Positions 3,376 through 40,668 of a stretch of DNA of 64,000 nucleotides are shown here, piece by piece. Every line of letters begins with the position of its first letter. The stretch's first letter is position 1. The notes under the pieces were generated by a model. That model had not been told where the DNA came from and ran no database searches. It was given only the letters and a program-made list of their open reading frames with translations. Source of the DNA: Qipengyuania sp. JC766 (GTDB taxonomy: Bacteria > Pseudomonadota > Alphaproteobacteria > Sphingomonadales > Sphingomonadaceae); the NCBI RefSeq assembly GCF_040717445.1, contig NZ_JBFEFL010000001.1, positions 2,242,001-2,306,000 of the forward strand, given 5' to 3'. Position numbers and translations under genes: made by a program.

Positions 3376-3389
3376 AGGTAGCGCTAACA
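3376..3389. promoter_or_regulatory. XylR-type operator 1 (AGGTAGCGCTAACA)
   Basis: This is one of six near-identical 14-bp palindromes with core AGCGCT found in promoter gaps of the locus. It lies 86 bases upstream of the semialdehyde dehydrogenase and 53 bases upstream of the sugar porter, suited to control both. The consensus TGRTAGCGCTAMCA matches, from memory, the operator of Caulobacter XylR. Confidence 0.8.
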
Positions 3390-3442: not shown

Positions 3443-4867
3443 ATGGAGACGAACGAAGCCACGCGTGGTGCAAGCGACGCAGGCGCGAACATGGCCCTGA
3501 TCACGGCCATCGTGGCCGTGGCGACGCTGGGCGGTTTTCTTTTCGGTTTCGACAGCGGCGTCATCAACGGGACGGTCGACGGCCTCCGGATCGCATTCGA
3601 TTCCGACGATGTCGGGACCGGCTTCAACGTGGCCTCGATGCTGCTGGGCTGCGCGGTCGGCGCGTTCCTTGCCGGGCGGCTGGCCGACGTCATCGGACGC
3701 AAGAAGGCCCTGTTGCTGGCCGCGATATTCTTCATCGTCAGCGCTTACGGATCGGGGATCGCGGGCTCTTCGGTAGAGTTCGTCATCTACCGCATCATCG
3801 GCGGTTTCGCGGTGGGCGCGGCGAGCGTCCTCGCCCCTGCCTACATCAGCGAGGTCACCCCTGCCCATCTGCGCGGACGTCTGTCCAGCGTGCAGCAGGT
3901 GATGATCATCATCGGTCTCACCGCAGCGTTCCTTTCGAACTACCTGCTGGCCGAGTATGCAGGTTCCTCGACCAACAGCTTCTGGCTCGGGTTCGAAGCC
4001 TGGCGCTGGATGTTCTGGATGGAACTCGTGCCTGCGACGATCTTCCTGGTGGCGCTGGTTTTCATCCCGGAAAGCCCTCGCTTCCTCGTCTCTCGCGTCC
4101 GGACGGGCGATGCGCGCTCGGTGCTCACGCGCCTGTTCGGTGCCGGTTTCGCCGCGCGAAAGGTCACGGAGATCGAGGCTTCGCTGGCGAACGACCATCG
4201 CCCTCGTCTGTCGGACCTGCTCGACCGCACGAGCGGCAAGATCCGCCCGATCGTGTGGACCGGCATCGGCCTCGCCGTCTTCCAGCAGCTCGTCGGCATC
4301 AACGTGGTGTTCTACTACGGCGCGGTGCTGTGGCAGGCAGTCGGCTTCAGCGAGAGCGACGCGCTCAAGATCAACGTTCTGAGCGGCGCGATTTCCATCG
4401 GTGCGTGCCTCCTGGCTATCGCCCTCATCGACCGGATCGGTCGCAAGCCGCTGCTACTCATCGGATCGGTCGGCATGGCGATCACGCTCGCCGTCGTCGC
4501 AATCGCTTTCATGAGCGGCGAACTGGTCGACGGGACGCTCGAACTTTCGGACGATGCAGGCCTCACTGCCCTGATCGCGGCCAACCTTTATGTCGCCTTT
4601 TTCAACTTCAGCTGGGGTCCGGTGATGTGGGTAATGCTGGGCGAGATGTTCCCCAACCAGATCCGCGGATCGGGCCTAGCGGTCAGCGGCTTCGCGCAGT
4701 GGATGGCGAATTTCGGAATCACGATGACCTTTCCGATCATGCTCGGCACGATCGGCCTGACCGGCGCTTACGGGTTCTACGCCATCAGCGCGGCGGTCTC
4801 GGTCGTGTTCGTCTGGCTGATGGTCCGGGAAACGAAGGGCATCGAGCTGGAGGATATGCAGGGCTGA
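3443..4867 (+). CDS. Sugar porter (XylE-like MFS sugar/H+ symporter)
   Basis: This 474-residue inner-membrane protein is of the MFS sugar-porter family. Visible signatures are GRLADVIGRKKAL after helix 2, the FIPESPRFLVSR signature at the end of the sixth helix region, a QQLVGINVVFYYG motif in helix 7 and DRIGRKPLL in the second half. These are the residues that define XylE- and GalP-type proton symporters. The xylan context makes D-xylose or a related pentose the likely substrate. ATG 3443 follows the purine-rich GGGAGAGGG. A flavin-dependent halogenase follows after 53 bases on the same strand, probably in the same operon. Operator 1 lies upstream. Confidence 0.88.
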   Translation: METNEATRGASDAGANMALITAIVAVATLGGFLFGFDSGVINGTVDGLRIAFDSDDVGTGFNVASMLLGCAVGAFLAGRLADVIGRKKALLLAAIFFIVSAYGSGIAGSSVEFVIYRIIGGFAVGAASVLAPAYISEVTPAHLRGRLSSVQQVMIIIGLTAAFLSNYLLAEYAGSSTNSFWLGFEAWRWMFWMELVPATIFLVALVFIPESPRFLVSRVRTGDARSVLTRLFGAGFAARKVTEIEASLANDHRPRLSDLLDRTSGKIRPIVWTGIGLAVFQQLVGINVVFYYGAVLWQAVGFSESDALKINVLSGAISIGACLLAIALIDRIGRKPLLLIGSVGMAITLAVVAIAFMSGELVDGTLELSDDAGLTALIAANLYVAFFNFSWGPVMWVMLGEMFPNQIRGSGLAVSGFAQWMANFGITMTFPIMLGTIGLTGAYGFYAISAAVSVVFVWLMVRETKGIELEDMQG

Positions 4868-4920: not shown

Positions 4921-6438
4921 ATGGAACAGCGCAAGCCGATCAAGCTCGTGGTGCTGGGAGGCGGAACGGCCGGCTGGATGACGGCCGCCGGGATCGCGAA
5001 ATTGCTGGCGGACCGGGTCGATGTCCACCTGGTCGAAAGCGAGGACATCGGCATCGTCGGGGTGGGGGAAGCGACGCTTCCCCACATCCGCGGGTTCGTG
5101 GAGCGGCTGGGGATCGACGAAGCCGCCTTCATGAAAGCGACCCACGCGACTTACAAGCTGGGCATCGATTTCCGCGATTTCGGCCGCATCGGCGAAAGTT
5201 ACATCCACCCCTTCGGCTCGTTCGGGGAAGAGCTGAATTCGGTCGGCTTCCACCATTACTGGCTGGAACTGCAGCGCCACGGGATGGCCGAACCGCTGGG
5301 CGACTATTCGTTGTGCGTGGCCGCCGCACTTGCCAACCGGTTTTCGCCGCCCGCGCAGGACATGTCGCTCGCCTCCACCTATGGCTACGCCTACCAGTTC
5401 GATGCGACGCTGTTCGGCCCGTTCATGCGCGAATTCGGGACTGGCATCGGGGTCACGCGCCACGAAGGCCGTGTCACGGAGGTGGAGAGGGACGGCAATA
5501 GGGGCGATGTCACGGCGCTGGTCCTTGCGGACGGGCGCCGGATCGAGGGCGACCTGTTCGTCGACTGCTCCGGCTTTCGCTCGCTCCTGCTGGGACAGGA
5601 ACTGGGCGAGGAATGGGAGGACTGGACCCACTGGCTCCCCTGCGACCGCGCGGCGGCGATGCCGTGCACCCACGCGACGGACGAACTGCGGCCCTACACG
5701 ACCGCCACCGCCATGCCCGCCGGATGGCGCTGGCAGATCCCGCTGCAGCACAGGATGGGCAATGGCTACGTCTTCTCGAGCGCCTTCATCGACGAGGACG
5801 CGGCATGCGAGACGATTCGCGCGGCGGCGGACGGCGAGCCGCTGGCCGATCCGCGGATCCTGAAATTCAGGCCCGGCCGCCGCAAACGGTCCTGGAGCCA
5901 CAACGTCATCGGCGTAGGCCTGGCGAGCGGCTTCCTCGAGCCGCTCGAATCCACCTCGATTTACCTGGCACAGATGGCCATCACCTACCTCATCGAACTG
6001 TTCCCGGAAGACGGGCGGGTGGATCCGGCCGACCGCGACGAGTTCAACCGGCTCGTGGACATGGAATACGACAGGGTCCGCGATTTCCTGATCCTCCATT
6101 ACCACGCGACGACGCGCGACGATTCCGAGTTCTGGAACCACGTCCGCACCATGGAGGTGCCCGACAGCCTGGCCGGTAAAATGGCCCTCTGGCGCGAGGC
6201 GGGCCGGATCGAGAAATATTCCGACGGCCTGTTCTACGATGCGAGCTGGATCGCAGTCTACATCGGCCAGGGCTGGCTGCCCGAACGGCACGACCCGCGC
6301 GCGGGCATGGTAGATCCAGCACGGCTGAAGGCGGCCGCCGACCGGCTCCGGCAGGAGATCGCCTTCGAAGTCTCGGCCATGCCGGCGCACCGCGAGTTCC
6401 TGCAGCGCGAGAGTGCGCGACTGGCCGACGCGGCGTGA
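4921..6438 (+). CDS. Flavin-dependent tryptophan halogenase family protein (copy 1)
   Basis: This 505-residue protein is of the tryptophan halogenase family. It has the FAD-binding GGGTAGW (13-19), GVGEAT, Lys79 in ATYKLGIDF (the same position as the catalytic lysine of PrnA), the halogenase motif WRWQIP at 269-274, and EPLES at 340-344. All key elements look intact. Such enzymes form hypohalous acid and transfer halogen to indole or other aromatic rings; the substrate of the glycan-locus subgroup is unknown. It follows the sugar porter and overlaps the next, degenerate paralogue at GTGA/ATG, so expression with xylose transport is likely. It is 40-50% alike by eye to copies 2 and 3. Confidence 0.88.
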   Translation: MEQRKPIKLVVLGGGTAGWMTAAGIAKLLADRVDVHLVESEDIGIVGVGEATLPHIRGFVERLGIDEAAFMKATHATYKLGIDFRDFGRIGESYIHPFGSFGEELNSVGFHHYWLELQRHGMAEPLGDYSLCVAAALANRFSPPAQDMSLASTYGYAYQFDATLFGPFMREFGTGIGVTRHEGRVTEVERDGNRGDVTALVLADGRRIEGDLFVDCSGFRSLLLGQELGEEWEDWTHWLPCDRAAAMPCTHATDELRPYTTATAMPAGWRWQIPLQHRMGNGYVFSSAFIDEDAACETIRAAADGEPLADPRILKFRPGRRKRSWSHNVIGVGLASGFLEPLESTSIYLAQMAITYLIELFPEDGRVDPADRDEFNRLVDMEYDRVRDFLILHYHATTRDDSEFWNHVRTMEVPDSLAGKMALWREAGRIEKYSDGLFYDASWIAVYIGQGWLPERHDPRAGMVDPARLKAAADRLRQEIAFEVSAMPAHREFLQRESARLADAA

Positions 6439-6455
6439 GCTCGGCAAGGGAACCG

Positions 6456-7913
6456 ATGCGGCGCGTCGTGGTCGCAGGTGGCGGTCAGGTCGCAATCCTG
6501 ACCGCGATCGGCATAAGGCGGGCGCTGCCGCGAAGCGACGTGATCGTTATCGGCTTGCCCCCGGACCGTGCGGCATTTGCGGATTTTGCGGCGACTGCCC
6601 TGCCGTTCACCAACCGGCTGCACGACCGATTGGGCGTCGAGGAAGCCGATCTCGTCCTGAAATGCGGCGCGAGCCACAGGCTGATCACCCGTTATCGGGA
6701 CTGGGGCGGAGGCGGCCAGGCCGGGCTGCTGCCCTATGGCGGGGGACAGGATCCCGCCCTCCAGACCCGATTTGCGCAGGAATGGGGCGGTGGACCGCGG
6801 AATGTCAGCCGGGAGCGCCCCGCCGGATCGCTGTCCGAAGTGCTGGCCGAGGCCGGACGGTTCGCCCCGCCGCCGCCGGATATGGAAACGCCGCTCTCGC
6901 GGGTGGAATATGGCCTGCGCTGGAACCCGCCGGCCTATCGCGACCTGCTGATCGGGATCGCGCAGCAGCTGGGTATCGCCCATGTGCCCGGCCCGATCGC
7001 CGCGCTCGAGCCGGACGATGCCGGCGGGATAGCATCGGTGGCGATCGAAGGCAGCGAGAGGATTGCGGCAGACCTGTTCGTCGATTGCAGCGGATCGGGC
7101 GCTGCGCTGGCCGCGGCCATGCCCGGATACGCGCGGATCGACTGGACTTCCGAACTCCCCGTCCGGCGCGTGCTCGTCGGCAAGCCCGGTCCGGCGGTCC
7201 TGGCGCTGGAAGACCGGATGTCGCTGGTACCGGAAGGCTGGCGCAGCGAACTGAACGGGCGCGACGGGGTTCAGGTATCTCTCGCCATGGCAGACGGGGG
7301 CGCCGAGGATGCCGCGGTGAATGCCCTGGGGGCAGAACCGATCGCTGGGATCGCGCTCAGTCCCGTGAGAATCCGCGATGCCTGGACCGGCAACGTGATT
7401 GCGCTGGGCGATGCGGCTGCGCAGTTCGAACCGCTGGGTTTTCTCAATCTCGATCTGGCGCATCGGCAGCTCGACCTGCTCCTCGAAATGCTGCCGGGCC
7501 GCGCAATCCTGCCGCCTGAGCGGGCGGAGTATAATCGGCGGGCGGGATTGATGATGGATGCGGTGCGCGACACTCTGGCGCTGCATTATGCGGCGCCGGG
7601 GGCGCGGGCGGTTTTCGGCGAACAGGCGGCCGTTCCGGACGCCGTCCGTATCGCGCTCGACCAGTTCGAAAGGCGCGGGCGTCTGCCGTTCCGGGAGGAG
7701 GCGCCGTTCCTGAAGCAGGAGGAAATGGAGCTGCTTACGGCGCTGGGTTTCATGCCGGGACGGGCGCCGCAGCATGGTGCGATGGACCCGCGCGAGGTCG
7801 AAATGGCGCTGGCGCGGGTACAACGGGATGCGAAAGAAGCGCTCGATTACGCCCCGGACTACCGCCAGTGGATGGCGCACGTTCTGAAGGTCAGCGCAAC
7901 GCCGACCGGATGA
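6456..7913 (+). CDS. Degenerate halogenase-like FAD protein (copy 4)
   Basis: This protein of about 485 residues aligns along its length with the halogenases but has lost their diagnostic residues. The N-terminal GGGTAGW is GGGQVAIL. The lysine region TYKLG aligns to SHRLI, so the catalytic Lys is replaced by Arg. No WxWxIP motif is present. The second FAD motif (DLFVDCSGSG) and a GDAAAQFEPLGFLNLDLAH segment are kept, so a flavin may still bind. ATG 6456 has AAGGGA at good spacing; GTG 6435 overlaps the stop of copy 1 and is an alternative. The 3' end overlaps the convergent JmjC-like gene by 23 bases. It may be a partner subunit or a different oxidoreductase. Confidence 0.7.
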   Translation: MRRVVVAGGGQVAILTAIGIRRALPRSDVIVIGLPPDRAAFADFAATALPFTNRLHDRLGVEEADLVLKCGASHRLITRYRDWGGGGQAGLLPYGGGQDPALQTRFAQEWGGGPRNVSRERPAGSLSEVLAEAGRFAPPPPDMETPLSRVEYGLRWNPPAYRDLLIGIAQQLGIAHVPGPIAALEPDDAGGIASVAIEGSERIAADLFVDCSGSGAALAAAMPGYARIDWTSELPVRRVLVGKPGPAVLALEDRMSLVPEGWRSELNGRDGVQVSLAMADGGAEDAAVNALGAEPIAGIALSPVRIRDAWTGNVIALGDAAAQFEPLGFLNLDLAHRQLDLLLEMLPGRAILPPERAEYNRRAGLMMDAVRDTLALHYAAPGARAVFGEQAAVPDAVRIALDQFERRGRLPFREEAPFLKQEEMELLTALGFMPGRAPQHGAMDPREVEMALARVQRDAKEALDYAPDYRQWMAHVLKVSATPTG

Positions 7914-8907
7914 TAGCGCGGATGCGCTCGAACAGGTCCGGCCGGGCCGCGCCCAGCACGCCGCGGGCGTGCTCCGGCAAGTGCGCGCCGGGATCGCCGT
8001 CGCTTTCGAACGCGTAGTAATCCAGCATGCCGCGCCATACCTCCCGCTGCGCCGGCGGCAGGTGGCGGAAGGCCAGGATCGCGTGGAGCAGCGCGTCGTA
8101 GGCGCTGCCGATCCCGTCGGGCTGGCCGCGTGTCCACCAGTAATTGACCAGGATGCTGACCGGCTCCAGCGATTCCACACCGTGCCACCAGCAATAGGGG
8201 ATGTAGATCGCGTCCCCCGGTTCCAGCGTGGCGACCTGCGCGGTCTTCCACGCTTCCATGAAGCGCGGATGGCGGTCGAGATCGGGCCGGGCGAGGTCCA
8301 CCATGCTAACCGGCGTGCCGGCGGGGGTCAGTTCGAAGGGCCCGGGATAGAGGTTGGCGATCTGGTCCGGCGGGAAGATCGTGAAGCGCCTGCGCCCGGC
8401 GACGCAGCAGGCGATGTTTTCCTTGATGTCGAAATGCGGCGCCACGCGGATCCGGTTGCCGATCCAGATGCGCGGGGCGATATCGGGCAGGAGCGTCAGG
8501 CGATTGTCGCGCGCGAAGGCGGGCATGAGGTCCGCGACGTCTTCCGACTGGACCGCCATTCCGGGCGGATCGGGCAGGTCGGCGGCGTGCAGCAGGTCCT
8601 GCAGGAAAGCTTCCAGCCGGCCCTGCCCGTTCCTGAAATTGAGGCCGGTCATCGCCTCGTTGTAGAAGAACCGCCCGCGCTGCGACGGCGCGGCCGCGAT
8701 GGCGGTGACGGGCCGGGTGGGCCCGCAATCCGAAAGATAGCGCACGATCGCCGCATCGCTGTCCCGCGCCTGCCGGACGGCGGGCCATTCGCGCACCAGT
8801 CCGCGCAGGACGACCGGCTTCCCCGCAACGCGGATCTCCTCCAGCGCGGCATTGTCTACCGGACCGGCGAGCTCCTCGACCGCGTCGGGCGCGGGCAGGC
8901 CGGTCAT
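7891..8907 (-). CDS. JmjC/Cupin_8-like Fe(II)/2-oxoglutarate oxygenase (copy 1)
   Basis: This 338-residue protein has the Cupin_8/JmjC-like fold signatures. An HFD triplet in VAPHFDIKEN gives the His-x-Asp metal pair, followed by RRRFTIFPPDQ, and the distal His is in PYCWWHGVES after LEPGDAIYIP. The facial triad is therefore intact, which predicts a hydroxylase or demethylase acting on protein or small-molecule substrate. N-terminal GKPVVLRGLVREWP is typical of the family. ATG 8907 overlaps the stop of halogenase copy 2 (ATGA), so it is the last gene of a halogenase-halogenase-oxygenase operon starting at 12001. Target unknown. Confidence 0.82.
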   Translation of the reverse strand: MTGLPAPDAVEELAGPVDNAALEEIRVAGKPVVLRGLVREWPAVRQARDSDAAIVRYLSDCGPTRPVTAIAAAPSQRGRFFYNEAMTGLNFRNGQGRLEAFLQDLLHAADLPDPPGMAVQSEDVADLMPAFARDNRLTLLPDIAPRIWIGNRIRVAPHFDIKENIACCVAGRRRFTIFPPDQIANLYPGPFELTPAGTPVSMVDLARPDLDRHPRFMEAWKTAQVATLEPGDAIYIPYCWWHGVESLEPVSILVNYWWTRGQPDGIGSAYDALLHAILAFRHLPPAQREVWRGMLDYYAFESDGDPGAHLPEHARGVLGAARPDLFERIRAIIRSALR

Positions 8908-10439
8908 GCCACGATGCGTTCGGTCGCGGGGATCGCGCTGCGATTGCGGGCGAGGAATTCGTCCTGCGTCGGCATCTGGTCCACCGCCTGCGCGATGACC
9001 TGCCCGATATGGGCCAGCCGCTGCTTCGTCTCCTGTTCGTCCAGCATGGCGGCAACGGGGTGGTACCCTTCCGGCTCCACGCCTTGGCCCGCCATCACGG
9101 ACAGCCAGCTGGTCTCGGTGAAAAGCTCCTCGTGCTCGCGGATCACGCGGCCGGTGGCGCGGAACATCTCCAGCTTCTCGCGCAGGCCGTCGGGCGGCGG
9201 CAGTTCGCGGCAATAGCGCCAGAACTCGGAATCGTCGCGCTCGGTCGCCTTGTAGTGCAGCACCAGGAAATCGCGGATATCGACGTAGTCGCGCTCCGTA
9301 TCGGCGTTGAAGCGATCCGCTTCCTTCCGCCCGAACGCGCTGGTCGGGAAAAAGGCGAGCAGGCGCGCGATGCAGGCCTGCACCAGGTGGATGGCGGTCG
9401 ATTCGAGCGGTTCCAGGAACCCGCCCGCAAGGCCCAGCGCAACCACGTTCTTCTCCCACGCCCGTTCGCGGTGCCCGGCCACGAAGCGCAGATGGTTGGG
9501 TTCGGCCAGCGGCTCGCCGTCGAGATTGTCGAGCAGGATCGCCAGCGCCTCGTCCGCCTCCATGTGGGCGGAGGAATAGACGTGGCCGTTGCCGATCCGG
9601 TGCTGCAGCGGGATGCGCCACTGCCACCCGGCGGGCCGCGCGGTGGATCGCGTCAGCGGTTCGCGGTCGCCGGCGAGCGAGCAGGGCATGGCCACCGCCC
9701 GGTCGCAGGGCAGCCACTTGCTCCAGTCGCGGAACGGGACGCCCAGCGTCTGGCCGAGGAGGAGCGAGCGAAAGCCGGTGCAGTCGAGGAACAGCTGTCC
9801 TTCGACGTCGGAGCCGTCCTCCAGCCGCACGCCGGTGACGAAGCCGCTTTCCCCGTCCTGCAGGACTTCCACGACCTTGCCCTCGCGCCGCACGACGCCC
9901 TGCGCCTCCGCCCGCTTGCGCAGGTAACGCGCATAGCGCGCGGCATCGAACTGGAAGGCGTAGGACAGCTTCGACAGGGGCGATTTCGGATTGTCCAGCT
10001 GCGGCCAGAAGAACTTGCCGCCCTTCCCGGCCATCGCCGCGATCGAGTACCGGTCGAGCTCCGACGTGTCGCCCGCCGCCCGGCCGCGCAGCCAGAAATG
10101 GTGGAATTCGATCCCCAGCATGTCGAGCCCGTAGGTCCCGAAGGGATGAACGTAGGAATGGCCCGGGCGCAGCCAGTCGACGAACTCGATCCCCAGCTTG
10201 TAGGTCGCGTGGGTTTCCCGCACGAATTCGTTCTCGTCGATGCCGAGCATGTTGTTGAAGGACAGGATCTGCGGGATCGTCGCTTCGCCCACGCCGACCG
10301 TGCCGATCGCCTCGCTTTCGACGAGTTCGATGGAGAGGCCGGGAAAGCCGCCCAGCACCCGGGACAGCGCGGCCGCGGCCATCCAGCCCGCCGTCCCGCC
10401 GCCCACGATCACGATCCTGCGAATGGGCTCCCCGTTCAT
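8904..10439 (-). CDS. Flavin-dependent tryptophan halogenase family protein (copy 2)
   Basis: This 511-residue halogenase-family protein has FAD-binding GGGTAGW, GVGEATIP, Lys81 in HATYKLGIEF, the motif WQWRIP at 272-277, and FLEPLESTAIH later. The catalytic set is intact. ATG 10439 overlaps the TGA of copy 3 by four bases, and its own stop overlaps the ATG of the JmjC-like gene by four, so translation of the three is coupled. No dedicated flavin reductase is seen nearby, though this family needs reduced FAD. The natural substrate is unknown. Confidence 0.88.
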   Translation of the reverse strand: MNGEPIRRIVIVGGGTAGWMAAAALSRVLGGFPGLSIELVESEAIGTVGVGEATIPQILSFNNMLGIDENEFVRETHATYKLGIEFVDWLRPGHSYVHPFGTYGLDMLGIEFHHFWLRGRAAGDTSELDRYSIAAMAGKGGKFFWPQLDNPKSPLSKLSYAFQFDAARYARYLRKRAEAQGVVRREGKVVEVLQDGESGFVTGVRLEDGSDVEGQLFLDCTGFRSLLLGQTLGVPFRDWSKWLPCDRAVAMPCSLAGDREPLTRSTARPAGWQWRIPLQHRIGNGHVYSSAHMEADEALAILLDNLDGEPLAEPNHLRFVAGHRERAWEKNVVALGLAGGFLEPLESTAIHLVQACIARLLAFFPTSAFGRKEADRFNADTERDYVDIRDFLVLHYKATERDDSEFWRYCRELPPPDGLREKLEMFRATGRVIREHEELFTETSWLSVMAGQGVEPEGYHPVAAMLDEQETKQRLAHIGQVIAQAVDQMPTQDEFLARNRSAIPATERIVA

Positions 10440-12001
10440 GTCGCGCCTCCGGCCGCGAAGGCGGGCATGGCATTGTCCGCGTGCCAGGCCCCGGCCTGCT
10501 TCAGGAACTGTTCCTGCGAGGGCAGCCGTTCGGCGACCATCCGGTAATTCTCCCGCATCTGCTGCAGGGCCGACCCGATCTTGGCCTCGTCCAGCGTATC
10601 GGCGATCGCGTCGTAGCCGTCGGGATGGATATTCTGGCCCAGCAGCACCGCGATCCAACTGGGCTGGGCGAACAGTTCCGCGTTCTCGCGGAAGACCCGG
10701 CCGTGTAGCTTCCACAGCGCCATCTTGCGGGTCAGGCTCTCGGGCACCTCCATGTCGCGCACGTAGCGCCAGAAGGGCGTGTCGTCGCGCTGCGTCGCCT
10801 TGTAGTGGAGGATGATGAAGTCGCGCACGTCCTCGTAGATCTCGCGCATTCCGCGGTTGTATTCGTCCCGCTCCAGCGGGCTGACCGGCTTGTCCGGGAA
10901 CAGGGCGAACAGGCGCGCGATGCCGTTCTGGACCAGGTGGATGCTGGTCGATTCGAGCGGCTCGATGAAACCGGACGACAGGCCGAGCGACACGACGTTG
11001 TGGTTCCATGCCTTGCTGCGCATCCCTGTCAGGAAACGCAGCGTGCGCGGTTCCGCCAAGGGTTCGCCTTCCACATTGTCCAGCAGGATGCGGCGCGCCT
11101 CGTCCTCGTCCATGAACCGGCTGGAAAAGACGTGGCCGTTGCCCATCCGGTGCTGCAGCGGGATGCGCCACTGCCAGCCCGCGCCATGTGCGGTCGCGCG
11201 GGTGAAGGGATCGGGCGGGGCGATATTGGCGGTGGGCAGCGCGATCGCGCGGTCCATCGGCAGCCAGGCGCTCCAGTCCTCGTAGCCGGTGCCCAGCTCC
11301 TCCTCGATCAGCAGGCCGCGAAAGCCGGAGCAGTCGATGAACAGGTCCGCCTCGATCCGGCGTCCGTCCTCGATCCGCACTGCGGTCACGTCGCCCGTTT
11401 CCGCATCGCGCTCGACCCCGGTGATCCGGCCTTCCTGGCGGATCACGCCCTGGCGTTCGGCGCGGCGGCGCAGATAGGCGGCATAGAGCCCGGCATCGAA
11501 ATGGAAGGCGTAGGCGATTTCGCTGACCGCCGACCGCGCGCCCGGTGCCGGCCGCCCGAAGGCGGAGCGGGCGGCGGCCATGGTGCTCATCGAATATTCG
11601 CCGATATCGCCCGTCCGGTCCGGTTCCAGCCGGCGCTGGCGCAGGTAGAGCTGGTGGAACTGGATGCCGTGGAAATCCTGCCCGTATTCGCCGAAGGGGT
11701 GGAAATACCGGTCGCCCGGGCGGCCCCAGTTGCAAAACTCGATGCCCAGCTTGAACGTGCCGCGCGTCTCGCGCAGGAATTCGTTCTCCGGGATGTCGAG
11801 CATCGCGTTGAAGTTGCGAATCGGCGGGATGGTCGCCTCGCCCACGCCGACGGTCCCGATCGCGTCCGATTCGACCAGCGTGATGGTGCGCCGGCCATCG
11901 TCGAAGAACTTCGACATGGCGGCCGCCGCCATCCAGCCGGCGGTGCCGCCGCCGACGATCGCGACGCGCTCTATCCGCTTCGCGGTAACGTTATCACTCA
12001 T
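10436..12001 (-). CDS. Flavin-dependent tryptophan halogenase family protein (copy 3)
   Basis: This 521-residue halogenase-family protein has GGGTAGW near residue 18, GVGEATIP, Lys84 in GTFKLGIEF, WQWRIP at 276-281 and FIEPLESTSIH. I chose ATG 12001 because MSDNVTAKRIERVAIVGGG places the Rossmann motif at the family's usual distance and a GTGAGGG sequence precedes it; a longer reading to 12109 adds no recognisable domain. It is the first gene of a leftward operon (copy 3, copy 2, JmjC-like) divergent from the xylan receptor, with operator 2 in the shared gap. Confidence 0.88.
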   Translation of the reverse strand: MSDNVTAKRIERVAIVGGGTAGWMAAAAMSKFFDDGRRTITLVESDAIGTVGVGEATIPPIRNFNAMLDIPENEFLRETRGTFKLGIEFCNWGRPGDRYFHPFGEYGQDFHGIQFHQLYLRQRRLEPDRTGDIGEYSMSTMAAARSAFGRPAPGARSAVSEIAYAFHFDAGLYAAYLRRRAERQGVIRQEGRITGVERDAETGDVTAVRIEDGRRIEADLFIDCSGFRGLLIEEELGTGYEDWSAWLPMDRAIALPTANIAPPDPFTRATAHGAGWQWRIPLQHRMGNGHVFSSRFMDEDEARRILLDNVEGEPLAEPRTLRFLTGMRSKAWNHNVVSLGLSSGFIEPLESTSIHLVQNGIARLFALFPDKPVSPLERDEYNRGMREIYEDVRDFIILHYKATQRDDTPFWRYVRDMEVPESLTRKMALWKLHGRVFRENAELFAQPSWIAVLLGQNIHPDGYDAIADTLDEAKIGSALQQMRENYRMVAERLPSQEQFLKQAGAWHADNAMPAFAAGGAT

Positions 12002-12061
12002 GCCCTCACCCGGCTGTTCCCTCTTTGCCACACGTCCTTTGCTAAAGTGCCAAGAGGCGAC

Positions 12062-12090
12062 TTGCAAAGGCAAGATTGTGTCGATATGCC
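12062..12090 (+). promoter_or_regulatory. Possible sigma70-type promoter for the TonB receptor
   Basis: TTGCAA (12062-12067) and TATGCC (12085-12090) are separated by 17 bases, ahead of operator 2 and the receptor start. The hexamers are only moderate matches, so this is a suggestion. A start near 12097 would put the operator about 30 bases downstream, where a bound repressor would block transcription. Confidence 0.3.
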
Positions 12091-12126
12091 TTTGTCCAGA
12101 ACAAAACAAAGCGCTGTCGGCCTTAA

Positions 12127-12140
12127 TGGTAGCGCTAACA
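12127..12140. promoter_or_regulatory. XylR-type operator 2 (TGGTAGCGCTAACA)
   Basis: This AGCGCT-core palindrome lies just upstream of the ribosome site (GGGAGGGAA) of the TonB receptor and 125 bases from the divergent halogenase copy 3. It is the best match of the six to the consensus. Confidence 0.85.
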
Positions 12141-12156
12141 TGGGAGGGAAAGCCTT

Positions 12157-15100
12157 ATGAAGGCGCTACCGCAAGGTATTCATTCGACATTGTCCGCGCA
12201 GGAGCGGTTCCGCGTGCTGCTGAAGGCAGGCGCATCCTCGCTCGCGCTGGGTGGCCTGTTCGCAGGTTCCGCCGCATTGGCGCAGGACCGTCCGCAGACG
12301 ACCGACACCGAACAGGCGGGCGAACCCGAACAAGGCGCGGAGCCGACGCTGGTCGAAGACAACATCATCACCGTCACCGGCATCCGCCAGTCGCTCGCCA
12401 ATGCGCAGGACATCAAGCGCGACGCGGACACGGTGGTCGATGCCATCACCGCCGAGGATATCGGCGCCCTGCCGGACCGCTCCGTGACCGAAGCGCTGCA
12501 GCGCGTCCCCGGCATCGCGATCAACCGCTTCGCCGGTTCCAACGACCCGGACCACTTCTCCGTCGAAGGGTCCGGCGTGGTCGTGCGCGGCCTCAACTTC
12601 GTGCGGTCCGAATTCAACGGGCGCAGCGCGTTCGCGGCCGGCGTCAACGGCCAGGCCCTGAACTTCGCGGACGTGCCGTCCGAACTGCTCGGATCGGTCA
12701 TCGTCAGCAAGAACGCGACTGCGGAACAGATCGAGGGCGGCCTTGCCGGCACGGTCAATCTCAACACCCGCAAGCCGTTCGACCGCGACGGGTTCCGCGT
12801 CGCCTTCGGCGCGGAGGCCAATTACGGCGACTTCCGCGAGGAATGGACGCCGACCGGCTCGCTGCTGATCAGCAACACCTGGGACACCGACATCGGCAAG
12901 TTCGGCCTGCTGGCGAGCGGGTCCTATTCGCGGATCAAGAGCCGCGCCGACGGCCTGCAGGTCGCGAACTACCAGACCCGCGACGGGCAGCTGGTCCGCT
13001 TCACCGATGTCGACGACCGCTTCATCTGCCGCAATCCGCTGCCGTCCGGAGTGGACAACAACACGCTTCCCCCGCCGCAGGCCGCATGCGGCGATTTCGG
13101 GTCGGGCGGGCCGGACGGCTTCGCGGACTATGCCGATTTCCGCGTCGCGCCCGTGGGCGGCCAGTTCCGCACGCAGGAGTTCGACCGCGAGCGTGACGGC
13201 CTCGCCATTTCCGCGCAGTTCGAATCGATCGACCGGAACACGCTGCTGACGGCCGAATTCATCCGCTCGCACTCGACCAACCGGTGGGGCGAATACACGT
13301 ACGAAACCGCGCCCGACCTGTCCGAATACTCGACCTATCCGATCGGCTGCCAGCAGAACGCGGGCGGTCCGAACGTGGTCGACAGCAATGGCGTCATCGA
13401 TCCCGACGACGAGACCCCGCCGCGCGCGCAGTGCCCGGTGGGCGGCTTCACCGACTTCATCTACGACGAGAACAACGTCTTCCAGTCGGGCTACATCGTC
13501 GATGCCAGCAATGGCTGGCGCGGTGCGACCAACAATTACGACCCGACGCTGGGCACGGGCGGATCGCCCTACGTCCCGATCGGCGGCTCGCAGTTCTCGC
13601 TCGCCCGCCGCCAGGTGGACGACGAGGTGACGAACGAGGACTACAGCCTCAACCTGCGGCACGATTTCAGCGACCGCGCGACGCTGGAACTGGACGCGCA
13701 ATACGCCACGTCTCGCAAGGAAAACCTGGACTTCAGCGTGTTCGGTTCGAACTTCGCCGACCAGGAGCTGGACCTCACCGGCGAATACCCGGTCTCCATC
13801 CCGCACAAGCCGCAGTTCCTCGGCTACACCTGGTCCGCGCCGAGTCCCGAACTGGGCGGCGCGACGGAAGAGGAATATTTCAACGATCCGCGCTTCCAGT
13901 TCTGGCGCGCGGCGATGGACCACGCGGAAGAGAGCACTGGCGAGCAGTTCGCCTTCCAGGCGGACTTCGAATACGAGTTCGACGAAATGGCCTTCATTCG
14001 CCGCGCCAAGGTCGGCGCGCGCTACCAGGGCCGCGAACAGACGGTGCGCTACACCACCTACAACTGGGGCATGCTGAGCGAGACCTGGTCGGGATCGCGC
14101 CCGATCAACTTCGCCGACACCCCGGCCGACCAGGCGGTGCGTTACAACTTCCCGAACTTCTTCCGCGGCGAAGTCCCGCCCCCTCCGGGCGCGTTCTACT
14201 ACGCGGGCGACCTGATCGATGATTACGACGGTTCGGTGGCGTTCTTCCGCGACATCCAGGACCTGACCATCCAGGCCGGCGGCGCGCCGACCTGGAACCC
14301 GCTGGCCGAACGCGGCGGGGCGATCCCGGGCACGCGGTACCTGCCGTCGGATATCCAGACCGTCGACCAGTACGACTACGCCGCCTACGGCATGCTCAGC
14401 TTCGGCAGCGACGACCTGTTCGGCGACGTGCGCATGTCCGGCAATGTCGGCGTCCGCTATGTCCGCACCGACCTGACCTCTGCCAGTTCGCGCGGGCCGG
14501 GTACGCTGGACGGGCTCAACATCGCGCAGCCGTTCGACGTGCGCTGTGCGCCGCGCGCGCGGCCGGCGGAAGCGGGCGGCGGCACGGCGATCCCGGGCGG
14601 CATCTGCAATATCGGCGAGGAAGCGTATCTCGCGCTGCAGAACTTCGTCGACGGCAGCTTCACCTACACGCCGATCAAGAACAGCTACGATTACTTCCTC
14701 CCCAGCCTGAACCTGAAGTTCGGCCTGACGGACGAGCTGATCCTGCGTCTTGCGGCTTCGAAGGTGCTCACCCGGCCGGACAACAGCTACATCCGCAACT
14801 ACTTCGTCTCCAGCATCGACACGTCGGGCAACTTCACCGGCTCCGCCGGCGATCCGACGCTGCTGCCGGCGACGGCGTGGCAGTACGATGCCAGCCTCGA
14901 GTGGTACTTCGCACGGGTCGGCTCGCTGACGCTGAACGGGTTCTACAAGGAGATCGACAACTTCTTCTTCCAGTCCGTGCGGACGGAGACGATCACCAAT
15001 GGCAGCGGCGAAACCCGCGACGTCACGGTGCGCGGCCCGGCGAACTTCGACGGTCAGGGCAAGGTGAGGGGCTTCGAGGTCGCCTACCAGCAGACCTTCG

Positions 15101-15597
15101 ATTTCTTGCCGGCCCCGCTCGACGGGTTCGGCGTGCAGGCGAACTACACTTTCATCGACAGCGAGGGCCTGCCCAACGCCTTCCTCAACGTCGGCGCCGT
15201 GCCGACCGATTCGACGGTCGAGCCGGGCAACCTCCCGCTCGAACAGCTGTCGCGGCACAACTACAACCTCACCGGCTTCTACGAGAAGGGACCGATCTCG
15301 CTGAGGGCCGCGTATAACTGGCGATCGCGCTTCCTGCTGACGGCATCGGATGCGATCTTCCCGTTCTACTCGATCTTCAACGAACCAACGGGCCAGCTCG
15401 ATGCGTCGATCTTCTTCAATGTGGGCGACGTGCTCGACCTGCCGGGAGACATCCGGATCGGTGCGCAGGGCGTGAACCTGCTCAACGAAGTGACCCGGAC
15501 GACCCAGGCCTATAGCGGCGATCCGGAAGACCTGGTCCCGCGCTCCTACTTCATGAACGACCGACGGTTCTCCCTGATCCTTCGCGGATCGTTCTAG
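12157..15597 (+). CDS. TonB-dependent receptor, probably for xylo-oligosaccharides
   Basis: This 1146-residue outer-membrane receptor has a signal peptide to about residue 43 (AALAQ), an acidic linker, the TonB box NIITVTG (69-75), a plug domain (GALPDRSVTEALQRVPGI to about residue 220) and a long 22-strand barrel ending in RFSLILRGSF with the terminal Phe of outer-membrane barrels. Its size and the ITVTGIRQSL plug opening are typical of Caulobacter/sphingomonad carbohydrate receptors. Flanking xylanase genes and operator 2 point to xylan fragments as ligand; this is inference. The start has a strong GGGAGGGAA ribosome site. A hairpin terminator follows the stop. Halogenase genes lie divergently upstream. 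Confidence 0.9.
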   Translation: MKALPQGIHSTLSAQERFRVLLKAGASSLALGGLFAGSAALAQDRPQTTDTEQAGEPEQGAEPTLVEDNIITVTGIRQSLANAQDIKRDADTVVDAITAEDIGALPDRSVTEALQRVPGIAINRFAGSNDPDHFSVEGSGVVVRGLNFVRSEFNGRSAFAAGVNGQALNFADVPSELLGSVIVSKNATAEQIEGGLAGTVNLNTRKPFDRDGFRVAFGAEANYGDFREEWTPTGSLLISNTWDTDIGKFGLLASGSYSRIKSRADGLQVANYQTRDGQLVRFTDVDDRFICRNPLPSGVDNNTLPPPQAACGDFGSGGPDGFADYADFRVAPVGGQFRTQEFDRERDGLAISAQFESIDRNTLLTAEFIRSHSTNRWGEYTYETAPDLSEYSTYPIGCQQNAGGPNVVDSNGVIDPDDETPPRAQCPVGGFTDFIYDENNVFQSGYIVDASNGWRGATNNYDPTLGTGGSPYVPIGGSQFSLARRQVDDEVTNEDYSLNLRHDFSDRATLELDAQYATSRKENLDFSVFGSNFADQELDLTGEYPVSIPHKPQFLGYTWSAPSPELGGATEEEYFNDPRFQFWRAAMDHAEESTGEQFAFQADFEYEFDEMAFIRRAKVGARYQGREQTVRYTTYNWGMLSETWSGSRPINFADTPADQAVRYNFPNFFRGEVPPPPGAFYYAGDLIDDYDGSVAFFRDIQDLTIQAGGAPTWNPLAERGGAIPGTRYLPSDIQTVDQYDYAAYGMLSFGSDDLFGDVRMSGNVGVRYVRTDLTSASSRGPGTLDGLNIAQPFDVRCAPRARPAEAGGGTAIPGGICNIGEEAYLALQNFVDGSFTYTPIKNSYDYFLPSLNLKFGLTDELILRLAASKVLTRPDNSYIRNYFVSSIDTSGNFTGSAGDPTLLPATAWQYDASLEWYFARVGSLTLNGFYKEIDNFFFQSVRTETITNGSGETRDVTVRGPANFDGQGKVRGFEVAYQQTFDFLPAPLDGFGVQANYTFIDSEGLPNAFLNVGAVPTDSTVEPGNLPLEQLSRHNYNLTGFYEKGPISLRAAYNWRSRFLLTASDAIFPFYSIFNEPTGQLDASIFFNVGDVLDLPGDIRIGAQGVNLLNEVTRTTQAYSGDPEDLVPRSYFMNDRRFSLILRGSF

Positions 15598-15754: not shown

Positions 15755-16951
15755 TCAGACGGGCATCAGGGCCCGCGCCAGCGCGTCGCGCACCGGCTTG
15801 GGCCGGTAACCCGCATCGTAGGGCGTCCCGCGAACGGGCAGCCCGTCGGGGCGCATGGCGGGCTCGAAATACTGTAGCCAGTTGAAGGTATCGACCATCC
15901 CCCAGGCGAGCACGTCGTCGAGATGGTCCGAGTAATCCATCATCACGTCGAAATAGCGGCGCGTGAAATCGGCCACCTTCCGGTCGCGCAGGGCGATATC
16001 GGCCGGCACGGCCCTGTCCTTGACGTCGAACTCGGTAATCAGCAGGCGGTAGCCCATGCCGGTCACTTCATCGAGGAAGCCCCGCCACTGCCGCTCGGCA
16101 TAGGGTCCGACGCCGGTCGACGGGTCGATCTCGAACATCTCGATATGCGACTGGATGCCCAGGGCATCGACCGGGACGTCGCGCTTCCGGAAGCCTTCCA
16201 GCAGGCGCAGCACGTCGGCGCAGTGCTTCAGGTGTGCCGGCTCCCAGCTCATGTAGTCGTTGTAGACCAGCTGCCCCTGGGGCAGTTCCTCGCGTGCGGT
16301 GTGGAAGGCGAGGTCCAGCACGGCCTCCACGCTGCCCATCGCGCGGCTGAGGCTCGTTTCCATGGGCGCGTTGCGGTCGTGGTCGATCGCCTCGTTCACG
16401 ACGTCGTGGCTTGAAATGACGCCGCGATAGCGCCGGGTCACCGTGCGGATATGCTCGGTCACGACCCGCTCCGCCTCCTGCACGGGATTGGCGCCGAAAT
16501 CGTAAGTGTTGAGCCAGTCAGGGAACCACTGCGGCCGATGCCACAGCAGCGTATGTCCGCGCATGTCCAGCCCCTCGCGTCCGACCCAGGCGACGATCTC
16601 GTCCATGCGGGCGAAGTCGTAAGTCTCGGGACCGGGGCGCAGGGCCTGCCATTTCATTTCGTTTTCCGGCACCACGATACCGCATTCGGCCTTCACGATG
16701 GCCGTGTAGCGCGGGTTCTGGATGGAGCCGGCCTCGGGTCTGCCGGGGATCGAGGCGATGGCGCTGCCGAACCTGCGCCCGCCGCGCCGCGCGATCGCGT
16801 TCAGTCCGGGCCCTTCGGGTGGCAGGGCGAGGGGATCGGTTCCTTGCGGAGCGGGTGCCGACGGCAGGCCGAGACTGCCTGCGCAAGCGGAAAGCGGCAG
16901 TGCCGCCATGCCGGCGAGCGCACCACGGCGGCTGAATTCGAACGTATTCAT
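15755..16951 (-). CDS. GH10 endo-1,4-beta-xylanase, Tat lipoprotein
   Basis: This 398-residue family GH10 enzyme cuts the beta-1,4-xylan backbone. Acid/base Glu187 lies in HDVVNEAID and nucleophile Glu307 in LLITEFDVKD; HTLLWHRPQWFP and GIQSHIEMF are further GH10 signatures. The N-terminus has twin arginines (SRRGALAG) followed by the lipobox LSAC at residues 20-23, so the enzyme is predicted to be exported folded by Tat and lipid-anchored, perhaps on the outer membrane next to the receptor. It is the last gene of a GH3-GH3-GH10 operon, starting one base after the stop of the preceding GH3. Confidence 0.92.
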   Translation of the reverse strand: MNTFEFSRRGALAGMAALPLSACAGSLGLPSAPAPQGTDPLALPPEGPGLNAIARRGGRRFGSAIASIPGRPEAGSIQNPRYTAIVKAECGIVVPENEMKWQALRPGPETYDFARMDEIVAWVGREGLDMRGHTLLWHRPQWFPDWLNTYDFGANPVQEAERVVTEHIRTVTRRYRGVISSHDVVNEAIDHDRNAPMETSLSRAMGSVEAVLDLAFHTAREELPQGQLVYNDYMSWEPAHLKHCADVLRLLEGFRKRDVPVDALGIQSHIEMFEIDPSTGVGPYAERQWRGFLDEVTGMGYRLLITEFDVKDRAVPADIALRDRKVADFTRRYFDVMMDYSDHLDDVLAWGMVDTFNWLQYFEPAMRPDGLPVRGTPYDAGYRPKPVRDALARALMPV

Positions 16952-16952
16952 A

Positions 16953-19340
16953 TCAGGCGATCTCCACCTCGACGCTTTTGAGAGAAGCGCTGCTTTTACC
17001 TGCCGAAATCCGGACCGGACCCGGCTCGTTGACCTCTTCCATCGCGCGGTTCCATATCGTCAGGCGCTCCGGCGCAATGGCGAACCGGATCTTCCGCCGT
17101 TCTCCCGGCGCCAGCGTGACGCGTTCGAACCCCTTCAGTTCGAGGACCGGCGTCGTCACGGACAGGTCGCGCCGGGTCACGTACAACTGGACCACTTCGT
17201 CCCCGGCCCGGTCCCCTGCGTTGTGCACCTCGACCTCGACCGAAAGTGGTTCGTCCAGCGCGAAAACGGGTTTGGCGGGACGCGGTTCGGATATGACGAA
17301 TTCGGTGTAGCTCAGCCCGTGCCCGAACGGGAACAGCGGCGCCGCATCGTCGAACAGGTAGCCGCGCCGCGCGCTCGGCTTGTGGTTGTAGAAGGACGGG
17401 ACCTGCCCTGCGTTGCGCACCACCGTGACCGGCAGTTTCGCGCCCGGATTGTTGAGGCCGAGCAGCGTTTCGGCCATCGCCACACCGCCTTCCTGTCCCG
17501 GATACCAGCATTCCAGCACGGCATCCGCCTGTTCGATAACGCGCGGCCAGCTCGGCGGGCGGCCGTTGATGGCGCACACGATCAGCGGTTTGCCGAGCAC
17601 CGCCATCGCGTCCACCAGTGCGTTCTGTTCCCCGACGATGTCGATGCTGACGCGGTCGCCCAGATGGGTGGTAGCGAAGCCTTCCCGGCTGGTCTGCTCC
17701 GTATCCCCGATCGCCAGCACGATCGTGTCGGCATTGCGGGCCACTTCCATCGCCTCGGCAATCAGTTCCAGGTTGCGTGCGCGCGGTGCGAGCTCGACAT
17801 CGCTTTGCGAGCGGTCCTCGCTGGTCGTGATGAAGACGCCCTGCGCTGTCACGAACCGCGCGTCGGGCGCGACCTGCCGCAGGCCTTCGATCAGGCTGAT
17901 CGTCTGCTTCGGGACGGAGGAGTAGCCCCCGAGCCGGGCGATCGCATGGTTGGGCCCGATGACCGCGACCGTGCCCATGCGTGCGGGGCCGAGCGGCAGT
18001 GCGCCGTTGCGATTGGTCAGCAGGCACACGGACTTTCGCGCCGCTTCCAGCGCCAACGCGCGGGCTTCGGCATTGCCGGTGATCCGCGCGGCCAGCGCGG
18101 CGTCGCCATAGGGATTTTCGAACAGTCCGGCGCGGAACTTGAAGGCGAGCATGCGGGCGCAGGCGCGGTCGACCAGTTCCACCGGGATCCGCCCGGCCTC
18201 CACCGCCCGTTCGAGCGTGGCGAAGGCGGTGCCGTCCGGGAGCTCGCTGTCGACTCCCGCCTCGAGTGCCTGCCTCGCCGCGTCTTCCAGGTCTGCTGCC
18301 ACCGAGTGCAGGCTGGCGAGCTCGCGCACGCCGCCGTAATCGCTCACGATCACGCCTTCGAAGCCCCATTCCCCCCGCAATACGTCGTCCAGCAGCCAGG
18401 CATTCGCGTGGCTCGGTATGCCGTCGATCTCGTTGTAGCTGGGCATGACGGCACCGATGCTCGTCCGGCGGACGATCTCGCGAAACGGGGGGAAGAAATT
18501 CTCCCGCAATTCGCGTTCGGACAATTGCGCGGGCGCGACGTTGTTGCCCGCTTCCGGCTGGCCGTGCCCGGTCATGTGCTTAAGCGTTGCGAATACCTTG
18601 CCCTCGCGCAGCATCTCGAACCTGCCAGGCCCCTGCATGCCTTCGACGGCTGCGACGCCCATCTCGGATACGAGGAAGGGATCCTCTCCCCATGTCTCCT
18701 CGATCCGGCCCCAGCGCGGATCGCGCACGATATCGACCACCGGGCTCAGCACCAGCGGCACGCCGCGGGCGCGCACCTCGCGCGCGATCACGGACTGGAC
18801 CCGGCGCATCAGGTCGGTGTCGAACGTCCCGGCAAGCGCGATCGCCTGCGGGAACATCGTGGCCTCTGTCGCCATGTAGCCGTGCAGCGATTCCTCGTGC
18901 AGCAGCACCGGGATGCCGAGCCGCGTGTCCTCGACTGCCCAGCGCTGCAGGGCGTTGATGAAGGCGACGGTTTCTTCCGGTGTGCGCCAGCGCGCCGCGG
19001 TGCCGCCCGCGGCCCCCGAAATGCCGGGAACGCCGCGCTTGTCGCTGGGGCGGGTCACATGGCCGATGCCGTCGGGAAAGGCGGCGCGGGCCTTCGCCGG
19101 ATCGAAGGCGAGGCCGTCGATCATGTCCGCCTTGGCCGCCCAGGCGGTGCGGATCTGGGCGACTTTCTCCGCAAGGGTCATGCGGGCCATCAGGTCCGCG
19201 ACACGCGCGGCCACGGACGCGCGCGGATCGCGATAGACCGGCCCGGCCTGCGCAAAGGCACGCGGAACGTGCATCGCGGTGAGGGCGGAGAGGCCGGCCC
19301 CCGAAAGCAGCCCGATCGCGCCGCGCCGCGAAACGGTCAC
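16953..19340 (-). CDS. GH3 beta-glycosidase, likely beta-xylosidase (copy 1)
   Basis: This 795-residue family GH3 enzyme has a Tat-like signal (VSRRGAIGLLSGAG), an N-terminal barrel with KHMTGHGQPEAG and the nucleophile Asp in GVIVSDYGG, a C-terminal alpha/beta sandwich (VIGPNHAIARLGGYS) and a fibronectin-III-like tail. The layout and the FHEESLHG/LHEESLHG-type motif fit xylosidase/glucosidase members acting on xylo-oligosaccharides. The start is GTG 19340, overlapping the stop of GH3 copy 2 as GTGA, which implies translational coupling. It is closely similar to copy 2, so the pair is a tandem duplication. Aglycone specificity is not readable. Confidence 0.88.
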   Translation of the reverse strand: MTVSRRGAIGLLSGAGLSALTAMHVPRAFAQAGPVYRDPRASVAARVADLMARMTLAEKVAQIRTAWAAKADMIDGLAFDPAKARAAFPDGIGHVTRPSDKRGVPGISGAAGGTAARWRTPEETVAFINALQRWAVEDTRLGIPVLLHEESLHGYMATEATMFPQAIALAGTFDTDLMRRVQSVIAREVRARGVPLVLSPVVDIVRDPRWGRIEETWGEDPFLVSEMGVAAVEGMQGPGRFEMLREGKVFATLKHMTGHGQPEAGNNVAPAQLSERELRENFFPPFREIVRRTSIGAVMPSYNEIDGIPSHANAWLLDDVLRGEWGFEGVIVSDYGGVRELASLHSVAADLEDAARQALEAGVDSELPDGTAFATLERAVEAGRIPVELVDRACARMLAFKFRAGLFENPYGDAALAARITGNAEARALALEAARKSVCLLTNRNGALPLGPARMGTVAVIGPNHAIARLGGYSSVPKQTISLIEGLRQVAPDARFVTAQGVFITTSEDRSQSDVELAPRARNLELIAEAMEVARNADTIVLAIGDTEQTSREGFATTHLGDRVSIDIVGEQNALVDAMAVLGKPLIVCAINGRPPSWPRVIEQADAVLECWYPGQEGGVAMAETLLGLNNPGAKLPVTVVRNAGQVPSFYNHKPSARRGYLFDDAAPLFPFGHGLSYTEFVISEPRPAKPVFALDEPLSVEVEVHNAGDRAGDEVVQLYVTRRDLSVTTPVLELKGFERVTLAPGERRKIRFAIAPERLTIWNRAMEEVNEPGPVRISAGKSSASLKSVEVEIA

Positions 19341-21739: not shown

Positions 21740-21788
21740 CAGTGATCCCTCTCTCCCGGGCCGCGCTTCTTGACTGGGCGGCATCCTG

Positions 21789-21802
21789 TGATAGCGCTAC
21801 CA
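21789..21802. promoter_or_regulatory. XylR-type operator 3 (TGATAGCGCTACCA)
   Basis: This AGCGCT-core palindrome lies in the 62-base gap between the divergent GH3 and GH67 genes. Its last base is the A of the first candidate ATG of GH67, an unusually close position that would allow the repressor to cover the start region of both units. Confidence 0.82.
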
Positions 21803-23919: not shown

Positions 23920-23963
23920 GAAATCTTGCCGCCGAGACGGAGACGGGTCTAAGGGATTGGTCC

Positions 23964-37972: not shown

Positions 37973-38000
37973 GCCGGGCAGGACTAGCGCGGCCCGCTCG

Positions 38001-40535: not shown

Positions 40536-40597
40536 TCTAAAGTCTCCCGGTTGACCGTCTGTCGCGGCCCTCATGTCCCTGCGCATCCCGATGCGTA

Positions 40598-40611
40598 TGG
40601 GAGCGCTACCA
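40598..40611. promoter_or_regulatory. XylR-type operator 6 (TGGGAGCGCTACCA)
   Basis: This AGCGCT-core palindrome lies 62 bases upstream of the GH3 lipoprotein gene and 57 bases beyond the end of the upstream oxidoreductase gene, so it serves the GH3-JmjC unit. Confidence 0.8.
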
Positions 40612-40668
40612 TACCCGGTTCCGCCGGCAGCACAAGTCATCCGGTGCCGGCAAGCGAGGCAGCCTGCG

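Follow-up and report, generated by a model that had tools for sequence, protein, structure and literature searches.

Why would an apparent xylan regulon of Qipengyuania sp. JC766 carry three intact genes for flavin-dependent halogenases (FDHs) and, directly behind one of them, an FDH-like gene that has lost its catalytic residues? The genes lie in a stretch of 64,000 nucleotides, hereafter called the window. A first-pass annotation of this DNA read three intact halogenases, a degenerate fourth copy and a JmjC/Cupin_8 oxygenase as two converging operons between two operators, and open reading frames, Pfam matches and an operator scan agree with this layout. We call the intact genes alpha, beta and gamma, and the fourth copy psi. 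Our results indicate that psi is a conserved and apparently non-halogenating partner of alpha. The genes of the cluster are as follows:

4921-6438, plus strand: alpha, intact FDH by Pfam Trp_halogenase match and motifs; nearest solved structure Xcc4156 (6y1w)
6435-7913, plus strand: psi, FDH paralogue that has neither the catalytic Lys/Glu nor the FAD-loop residues; adjacent to alpha in every alpha locus examined
7897-8907, minus strand: Cupin_8/JmjC oxygenase; nearest solved relatives FIH and JMJD5
8904-10439, minus strand: gamma, intact FDH; 4-bp overlap with the cupin gene
10436-12001, minus strand: beta, intact FDH; 4-bp overlap with gamma

An FDH-like frame directly follows alpha in all 73 alpha loci, 40 in a first set and 33 in a second. 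The first set was drawn from one 20-kb halogenase-centred stretch in each of 40 genomes of the host's family, and from the best 80 of 586 confirmed loci in named genomes, which are a biased sample; L072 and L096 duplicate loci from the family genomes and were excluded from trees and locus counts. With the window and a second locus of its genome (L010) included, this sample comprises 40 loci with a gene of the alpha clade and 80 other FDH loci. Twenty stretches located 150 kb upstream in the same genomes served as controls. Psi was recognized by script in 39 of the first 40 alpha loci and by inspection in L078, where it (8481-9989) is hidden by a long overlapping frame. For the second set, 397 family genomes were searched with alpha alone, giving 44 matches in 40 genomes; 11 of these were already in the first set, and the remaining 33, from 29 genomes, were all read. 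Their psi frames are 416-574 amino acids (aa) long as listed. No pair among the 73 alpha sequences is more than 98.5% identical. The psi label was assigned partly by a score below 400 bits, and residues were checked separately.

In the window, psi scores 170.5 bits against Trp_halogenase (PF04820) and reads GGGQVA, with an arginine in place of the lysine, GWRSEL in place of WxWxIP and EPLGF in place of EPLES. Motif counts were made on 66 aligned alpha-linked psi sequences, 33 from each set, leaving out the short or end-cut frames of L024, L033, L039, L042, L092, L108 and L127, as well as a gamma fragment (L247 6831-8033). The frame of L042 is truncated by the end of the fetched stretch; the other six are 344-378 aa long, score 112-168 bits and still lie directly behind alpha. 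None of the dropped psi shows a catalytic lysine where its residues could be read. Among the aligned sequences, K88 is kept in 2 and E352 in 11, and both together in none of the 66, while frames of the alpha, beta and gamma clades have K88 in 129 of 130 (one gap) and L343 and E352 in 130/130. Psi thus has the fold and the PF04820 match (32/32 aligned sequences) of an FDH without the catalytic Lys and Glu pair, and this includes the copy in the window. The residues of the flavin adenine dinucleotide (FAD) loop, GxVGVGE, are lost as well, G56 being kept in 6% and E59 in 3% of 33 sequences, and an acidic residue at position 48 occurs in 10/66; psi does not show the combination of FAD-binding loop and acid at 48. 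The loop glutamate has been described as a sensor of FAD binding (PMC7336383). Psi has conserved residues of its own, namely A55 (56/66), D56 (52/66), R88 (50/66), R92 (48/66) and D343 (51/66), the last in a GDAA context that is seen in 51 of the 66 psi versus 0 of the 130 alpha, beta and gamma frames. In the first 33 psi, R88 and D343 occur together in 20, are both absent in 12, and R88 stands alone in one; this pairing is a lead and not an independent test of covariation, because it comes mostly from one subclade.

Moreover, the psi sequences form a single clade in our trees. In a tree of 266 FDH frames all 41 psi frames fall together (support 0.991), and in an 81-row site-heterogeneous tree psi forms one side of a branch (SH-aLRT 100), with some long psi branches. 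The ratio of nonsynonymous to synonymous substitution rates (dN/dS, Nei-Gojobori) is 0.12-0.30 over six close psi pairs, indicating purifying selection; dS is saturated in one pair, L108/L127. An AlphaFold model built on 32 sequences reached a pLDDT of 91.4 and a pTM of 0.92, and Foldseek returned BrvH and Xcc4156 as its best matches (TM 0.83-0.86) over the length of psi. No NCBIfam family is named for the psi of the window. Halogenation by the known route is unlikely for psi, since the catalytic pair and the FAD-loop glutamate are gone. Altogether, because psi is constant, selected, predicted to fold as an FDH and devoid of the catalytic pair, and has conserved residues of its own, we regard it as a conserved, apparently non-halogenating partner of alpha.

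Two other accounts of psi have to be weighed against this one. The word degenerate, used by the first-pass annotation, describes the loss of the catalytic motifs well and fails as a statement of decay. A decaying duplicate of alpha would explain the missing catalytic residues and the fast evolution of psi, yet not the open frame behind alpha in 73/73 loci, the single clade, the purifying selection or the conserved residues peculiar to psi, and we rejected this account as extremely improbable. A more serious candidate is a neofunctionalised, hydroxylase-like flavoprotein, in which the GD motif would hold flavin and psi would oxidise the same aromatic target as the halogenases. The GDAA aspartate, present only in psi, is counted in its favour, as are weak matches of psi to flavin hydroxylase models (UbiH-type in 9/32, QhpG in 8/32 and GoxB in 6/32 sequences); the QhpG and LodB models match far below their cut-offs, and the best match of psi to GoxB has an E-value of 1.3e-9, with no cut-off shown. 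In Rossmann FAD folds, however, the acidic residue at position 48 binds ribose, and among the 51 psi with D343 only 4 have it. E59 is lost, D343 is missing from several psi branches, and the protein is only 344-378 aa long in seven loci. Also in favour of the flavoprotein, QhpG is itself a peptidyl-tryptophan dihydroxylase (PMC7876137). We consider a flavoprotein of this kind possible, at a rather low probability, and rank a non-catalytic partner of alpha ahead of it.

The GDAA aspartate and the hydroxylase matches leave room for another enzyme activity of psi, and further observations also weigh against the partner reading. Eight frames of the psi clade occur in seven loci without a clade-alpha gene (L149, L130 twice, L079, L126, L117, L150 and L091); psi follows another FDH in four of them, and two begin right at the end of a contig or close to it. 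One of the eight frames, L150 11502-13001 on the plus strand, keeps both K88 and E352, so that loss of the pair is not universal in the clade; this frame may resemble an ancestral form or may be a long branch placed wrongly. Psi also diverges faster than alpha, with a median distance of 0.72 versus 0.45 over 19 loci, and this divergence, together with the copies of 344-378 aa, means that the role of psi may be loose. In the L080/L081 pair, the dN/dS of psi equals that of alpha, and beta reaches 0.215 in the pair that includes the window.

As for the three intact copies, their PF04820 scores (alpha 604, gamma 624.5 and beta 632.3 bits; cut-off 21) are far above that of psi. All three contain the GxGxxG motif as GGGTAGWM, the catalytic lysine in FKLGI or YKLGI, WxWxIP and the glutamate of EPLES, confirming what the first-pass annotation had read for the last three motifs. 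Judged by their sequences, alpha, beta and gamma are therefore FDHs that keep the catalytic residues. The three nearest solved relatives of alpha are Xcc4156 (6y1w), 9luq and BrvH (6frl), and a profile of all four copies retrieves the same three structures. BrvH and Xcc4156 share the catalytic motifs with alpha, beta and gamma. The brvH gene adjoins a second halogenase gene (PMC5945002). Unlike the situation found here, the available passages on BrvH and Xcc4156 describe no inactive paralogue, and in the two main texts the word TonB has 0 occurrences. In the 266-frame tree, the window's four copies fall in separate branches, whose members mostly occupy the matching array position elsewhere: alpha leads, psi comes second, and beta and gamma follow. 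Support is 0.913 for the alpha clade (40 members) and 0.919 for beta, and only 0.366 for the wide gamma branch; in the 81-row tree, alpha, beta, gamma and single-copy FDHs are somewhat mixed (2, 4, 3 and 5 changes). Values of dN/dS are 0.04-0.125 for alpha (six close pairs), 0.04-0.215 for beta and 0.05-0.21 for gamma (three pairs). At L247 (6503-8033, minus strand), gamma is split into two overlapping frames, possibly by a frameshift or a sequencing error, and psi is open there.

The array and a TonB receptor of the window's type share a locus in Alpha- and Gammaproteobacteria. Such a receptor lies in the same stretch in 39/40 alpha loci and 65/80 other FDH loci, and in 0/20 controls. The linkage extends beyond close relatives, and its restriction to them, which the first-pass annotation had named as refuting its hypothesis, was not found. 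The receptor is the most constant neighbour of the FDHs. Neighbour clusters include many shadow frames; only clusters with a Pfam-checked member were used, their remaining members being trusted to the cluster. The profile used to recognise the receptor was built from linked ones, and unlinked TIGR01782 receptors still score 277-666 bits with it. Named alpha loci include some from Sphingomonas, Erythrobacter, Oceanicaulis and Maricaulis and, on the gammaproteobacterial side, from Aestuariibacter (L106 and L109) and a metagenome-assembled genome (L129). FDHs as such are common in the family: 104 of 149 genomes have a PF04820 match (E <= 0.001), 101 of them above the family cut-off, and often several per genome. 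The 2.7-Mb genome that holds the window has six, four in the window and two at 1758811 and 1766739, which lie near an esterase, a glycoside hydrolase family 97 (GH97) gene and a TIGR01782 receptor (L010, G000:C1:1750000-1769999). The FDH at 8677-10500 of L010 belongs to a diverged branch and keeps K and E (ATYKLGI, EPLEAT). Arrays resembling those of sphingomonads appear in L077 (Bacillus sp. 2B10) and L083 (Arthrobacter sp. TPD3018), records that are probably mislabelled or contaminated.

On the other hand, the sugar genes around the array vary. GH10 genes accompany 16/40 alpha loci and 3/80 other FDH loci (Fisher p 9e-7), GH97 genes 1/40 and 14/80, and glucokinase-type genes 0/40 and 9/80. 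GH31 genes, found in 5/40 alpha and 10/80 other loci, were set aside as evidence because this family can also act on xylan-derived sugars. The array type tracks the sugar, and the link between FDH and receptor is independent of it.

Taken together, the explanation that we tentatively favour, with somewhat less than even confidence, is that the window holds the xylan-locus form of a conserved array in which alpha and psi are partners and alpha, beta and gamma modify aromatic side chains of a peptide or protein. The array would consist of the TonB receptor, alpha, psi, beta and gamma, with a Cupin_8 resembling protein hydroxylases joined to gamma in one lineage. Psi, presumably non-halogenating, would be paired functionally with alpha, most likely as a complex of the two in which psi may replace one half of an FDH homodimer or present the substrate. 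Alpha, beta and gamma may add halogen, probably bromine, to the side chains, a view for which their open-site relatives Xcc4156 and BrvH are cited; the target would be made or imported under the xylan regulon, and the linked receptor is its most constant candidate. The FIH-like oxygenase may hydroxylate the same or a neighbouring target, and xylan sugars would induce the array through the LacI operators.

Flavoprotein chemistry on tryptophan inside a protein is known from the GoxB/LodB maturases. Similarly, halogenation of tryptophan within a peptide or protein has been described for SrpI (PMC10858898) and MibH (PMC7336383; PMC5945002), and MibH, SrpI and QhpG resemble the proteins of the array as FDHs or flavoproteins acting on such a residue. 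The substrates of MibH, SrpI, QhpG and GoxB/LodB are identified, whereas the array has a candidate only. TIGR01782 receptor loci for sugars resemble the window in their receptor, LacI operators, sugar porter and glycoside hydrolases; they differ in that we found no description of one with a psi-containing halogenase array. A literature search by title and abstract, outside which most subscription papers lay, found no account of receptor-linked FDH arrays, of the alpha-psi pair or of a conserved inactive FDH. The FDHs, the Cupin_8 oxygenases and the TIGR01782 receptors each belong to a known family, and the alpha-psi pair and the array may be new. A constant partner behind alpha provides a direct handle on the substrate of these halogenases, and in vitro assays of single FDHs from such arrays may miss a subunit. 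Should psi prove to be a pseudoenzyme subunit, it would represent a dead halogenase of old origin and wide distribution, retained to regulate or to recognise the substrate.

What the halogenases act on can also be seen differently. Plant phenolics freed from xylan had been put forward as substrate, and xylan does bear feruloyl groups, in line with the enrichment of alpha arrays beside GH10. Related FDH and receptor loci carry GH97 or glucokinase-type genes, however, with which aromatic groups are not expected, and so does the other FDH locus of the same genome, with its GH97. Phenolics are thus a poor common substrate and were disfavoured as such, an argument that limits only a common phenolic substrate and not one special to alpha arrays. 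With indole halogenases as the nearest characterised relatives, modification of xylan phenolics by the system is very unlikely in our view. The three halogenases could instead act on a small, diffusible, indole-like signal or antibiotic, the sugar loci merely tying its production to feeding. BrvH and the Xcc halogenases do use free indole and its derivatives in vitro, and their native substrate was called unknown in 2020 (PMC7336383). The authors of the same work proposed larger substrates, possibly peptides, from the open site of Xcc4156 (PMC7336383). No other biosynthetic gene was found among the cluster genes scanned, and across loci that serve different sugars the FDHs keep a single type of receptor as neighbour; both points speak against a diffusible product, which we judge to be rather unlikely. 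Modification of a peptide or protein has its own difficulties. GH10 was seen in only 16 of the 40 alpha-locus stretches, some TIGR01782 receptors lack a neighbouring FDH, and adjacency to the receptor may reflect co-regulation only. Distances of receptor and FDH correlate at 0.82-0.94 over 19 loci, which is no proof of receptor modification, as any co-inherited genes would correlate.

The receptor, or another surface protein, is perhaps the target of the array. Of 13 receptors fetched without an FDH nearby, 12 fall outside the group of FDH-linked receptors, and the thirteenth, L178, was placed inside the group and proved to be FDH-linked; the grouping is a FastTree leaf order without support values. 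Receptors were judged unlinked on flanks of about 1.5 kb, with L154, L179 and L190 also clear over 14-20 kb. Two tryptophans, W637 and W644, are present in 36/36 receptors of alpha loci, in 33/57 and 27/57 of other FDH loci, and in 1/12 and 0/12 unlinked receptors. In the receptor model (pLDDT 78) they open a long loop that connects strand 614-632 to strand 733-751 and is probably extracellular, since it lies on the side away from the short turns. W637 and W644 may simply bind sugar. That an alpha-psi heteromer, with a dead FDH subunit recognising the protein, halogenates the array's own receptor, for example at W637/W644, is clearly unlikely; if true, a nutrient receptor would carry a halogen added after translation under the control of its own sugar regulon.

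The Cupin_8 oxygenase is a lineage-limited addition to the array. Its gene scores 217.4 bits against Cupin_8, and H158, D160 and H242, the HxD...H iron ligands, are invariant in 24 aligned sequences; domain and ligands together identify it, on sequence grounds, as a probable Cupin_8/JmjC 2-oxoglutarate oxygenase. It shares the HxD...H with the JmjC protein hydroxylases FIH and JMJD5, its nearest solved relatives, to which the similarity (phmmer E 1e-17) covers residues 149-275 only. A cupin gene is present in 20/40 alpha loci, 10/80 other FDH loci and 0/20 controls, and lies directly after gamma for 13 of the 30 gamma-clade genes of alpha loci. A constant pairing of halogenase and Cupin_8 was rejected on these counts. 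The genome has three PF13621 matches, one of them weak, the second strong one being at 36965-38029 of the window.

Around the cluster, the window contains the following features:

3376-3389, no strand assigned: operator 1, LacI-type, 5' of the sugar porter-alpha-psi operon
3443-4867, plus strand: sugar porter (MFS, XylE-like) that probably heads the operon of alpha and psi
12127-12140, no strand assigned: operator 2, LacI-type, between the receptor and the beta-gamma-cupin operon that diverges from it
12157-15597, plus strand: TonB-dependent receptor, TIGR01782 (TonB-Xanth-Caul), 652.6 bits, cut-off 310
15755-16951, minus strand: GH10 xylanase
16953-21784, minus strand: two GH3 genes (16953-19340 and 19337-21784)
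21616-23919, plus strand: GH67, frame as listed, true start possibly later
24033-25070, plus strand: LacI-family regulator, helix-turn-helix at residues 257-302 of frame 23265-25070, start presumed
35818-36852: GH5, further along the window
36965-38029, minus strand: second Cupin_8 oxygenase, between GH3 and GH5
38001-40640: GH3, further along the window

The sugar porter and the TonB receptor are the neighbours that had been named for the cluster. The best NCBIfam model for the porter is XylE, below its cut-off, and a sugar porter family model matches above cut-off. Porter, alpha and psi form one likely operon, since alpha starts 53 bp past the stop of the porter gene; alpha and psi overlap by four bases, GTGA, and a later ATG is possible as the start of psi. 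Beta, gamma and the cupin gene form the other operon, convergent with the first and divergent from the TIGR01782 receptor, from which beta is separated by 155 bp (12002-12156). The overlaps of beta with gamma and of gamma with the cupin gene are four bases each, ATGA on the minus strand, as originally noted, and the converging psi and cupin genes overlap by 17 bp. Beyond the receptor come GH10, two GH3, GH67, GH5, the third GH3 and the LacI regulator.

Embedding of the cluster in a xylan regulon, also proposed by the first-pass annotation, gains support from the operators. With up to two mismatches, the predicted operator TGGTAGCGCTAACA matches the window 8 times, at 5 places, versus 0.13 matches expected from shuffles, and 0/100 shuffled windows have at least 8. 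The sites at 3376 and 12127 bracket the halogenase cluster, and the shared predicted operator stands before the halogenase operons and before xylan genes, with the LacI regulator, GH10 and GH67 nearby. These sites support a tie of the halogenase-cluster genes to the LacI and xylan genes in a putative LacI-controlled regulon. Operator-like palindromes were found in 16/40 alpha loci, 12/80 other FDH loci and 1/20 control stretches. Operator-like sites at 36901 and 40598 accompany the second Cupin_8 gene, so that Cupin_8 also joins sugar genes without a halogenase.

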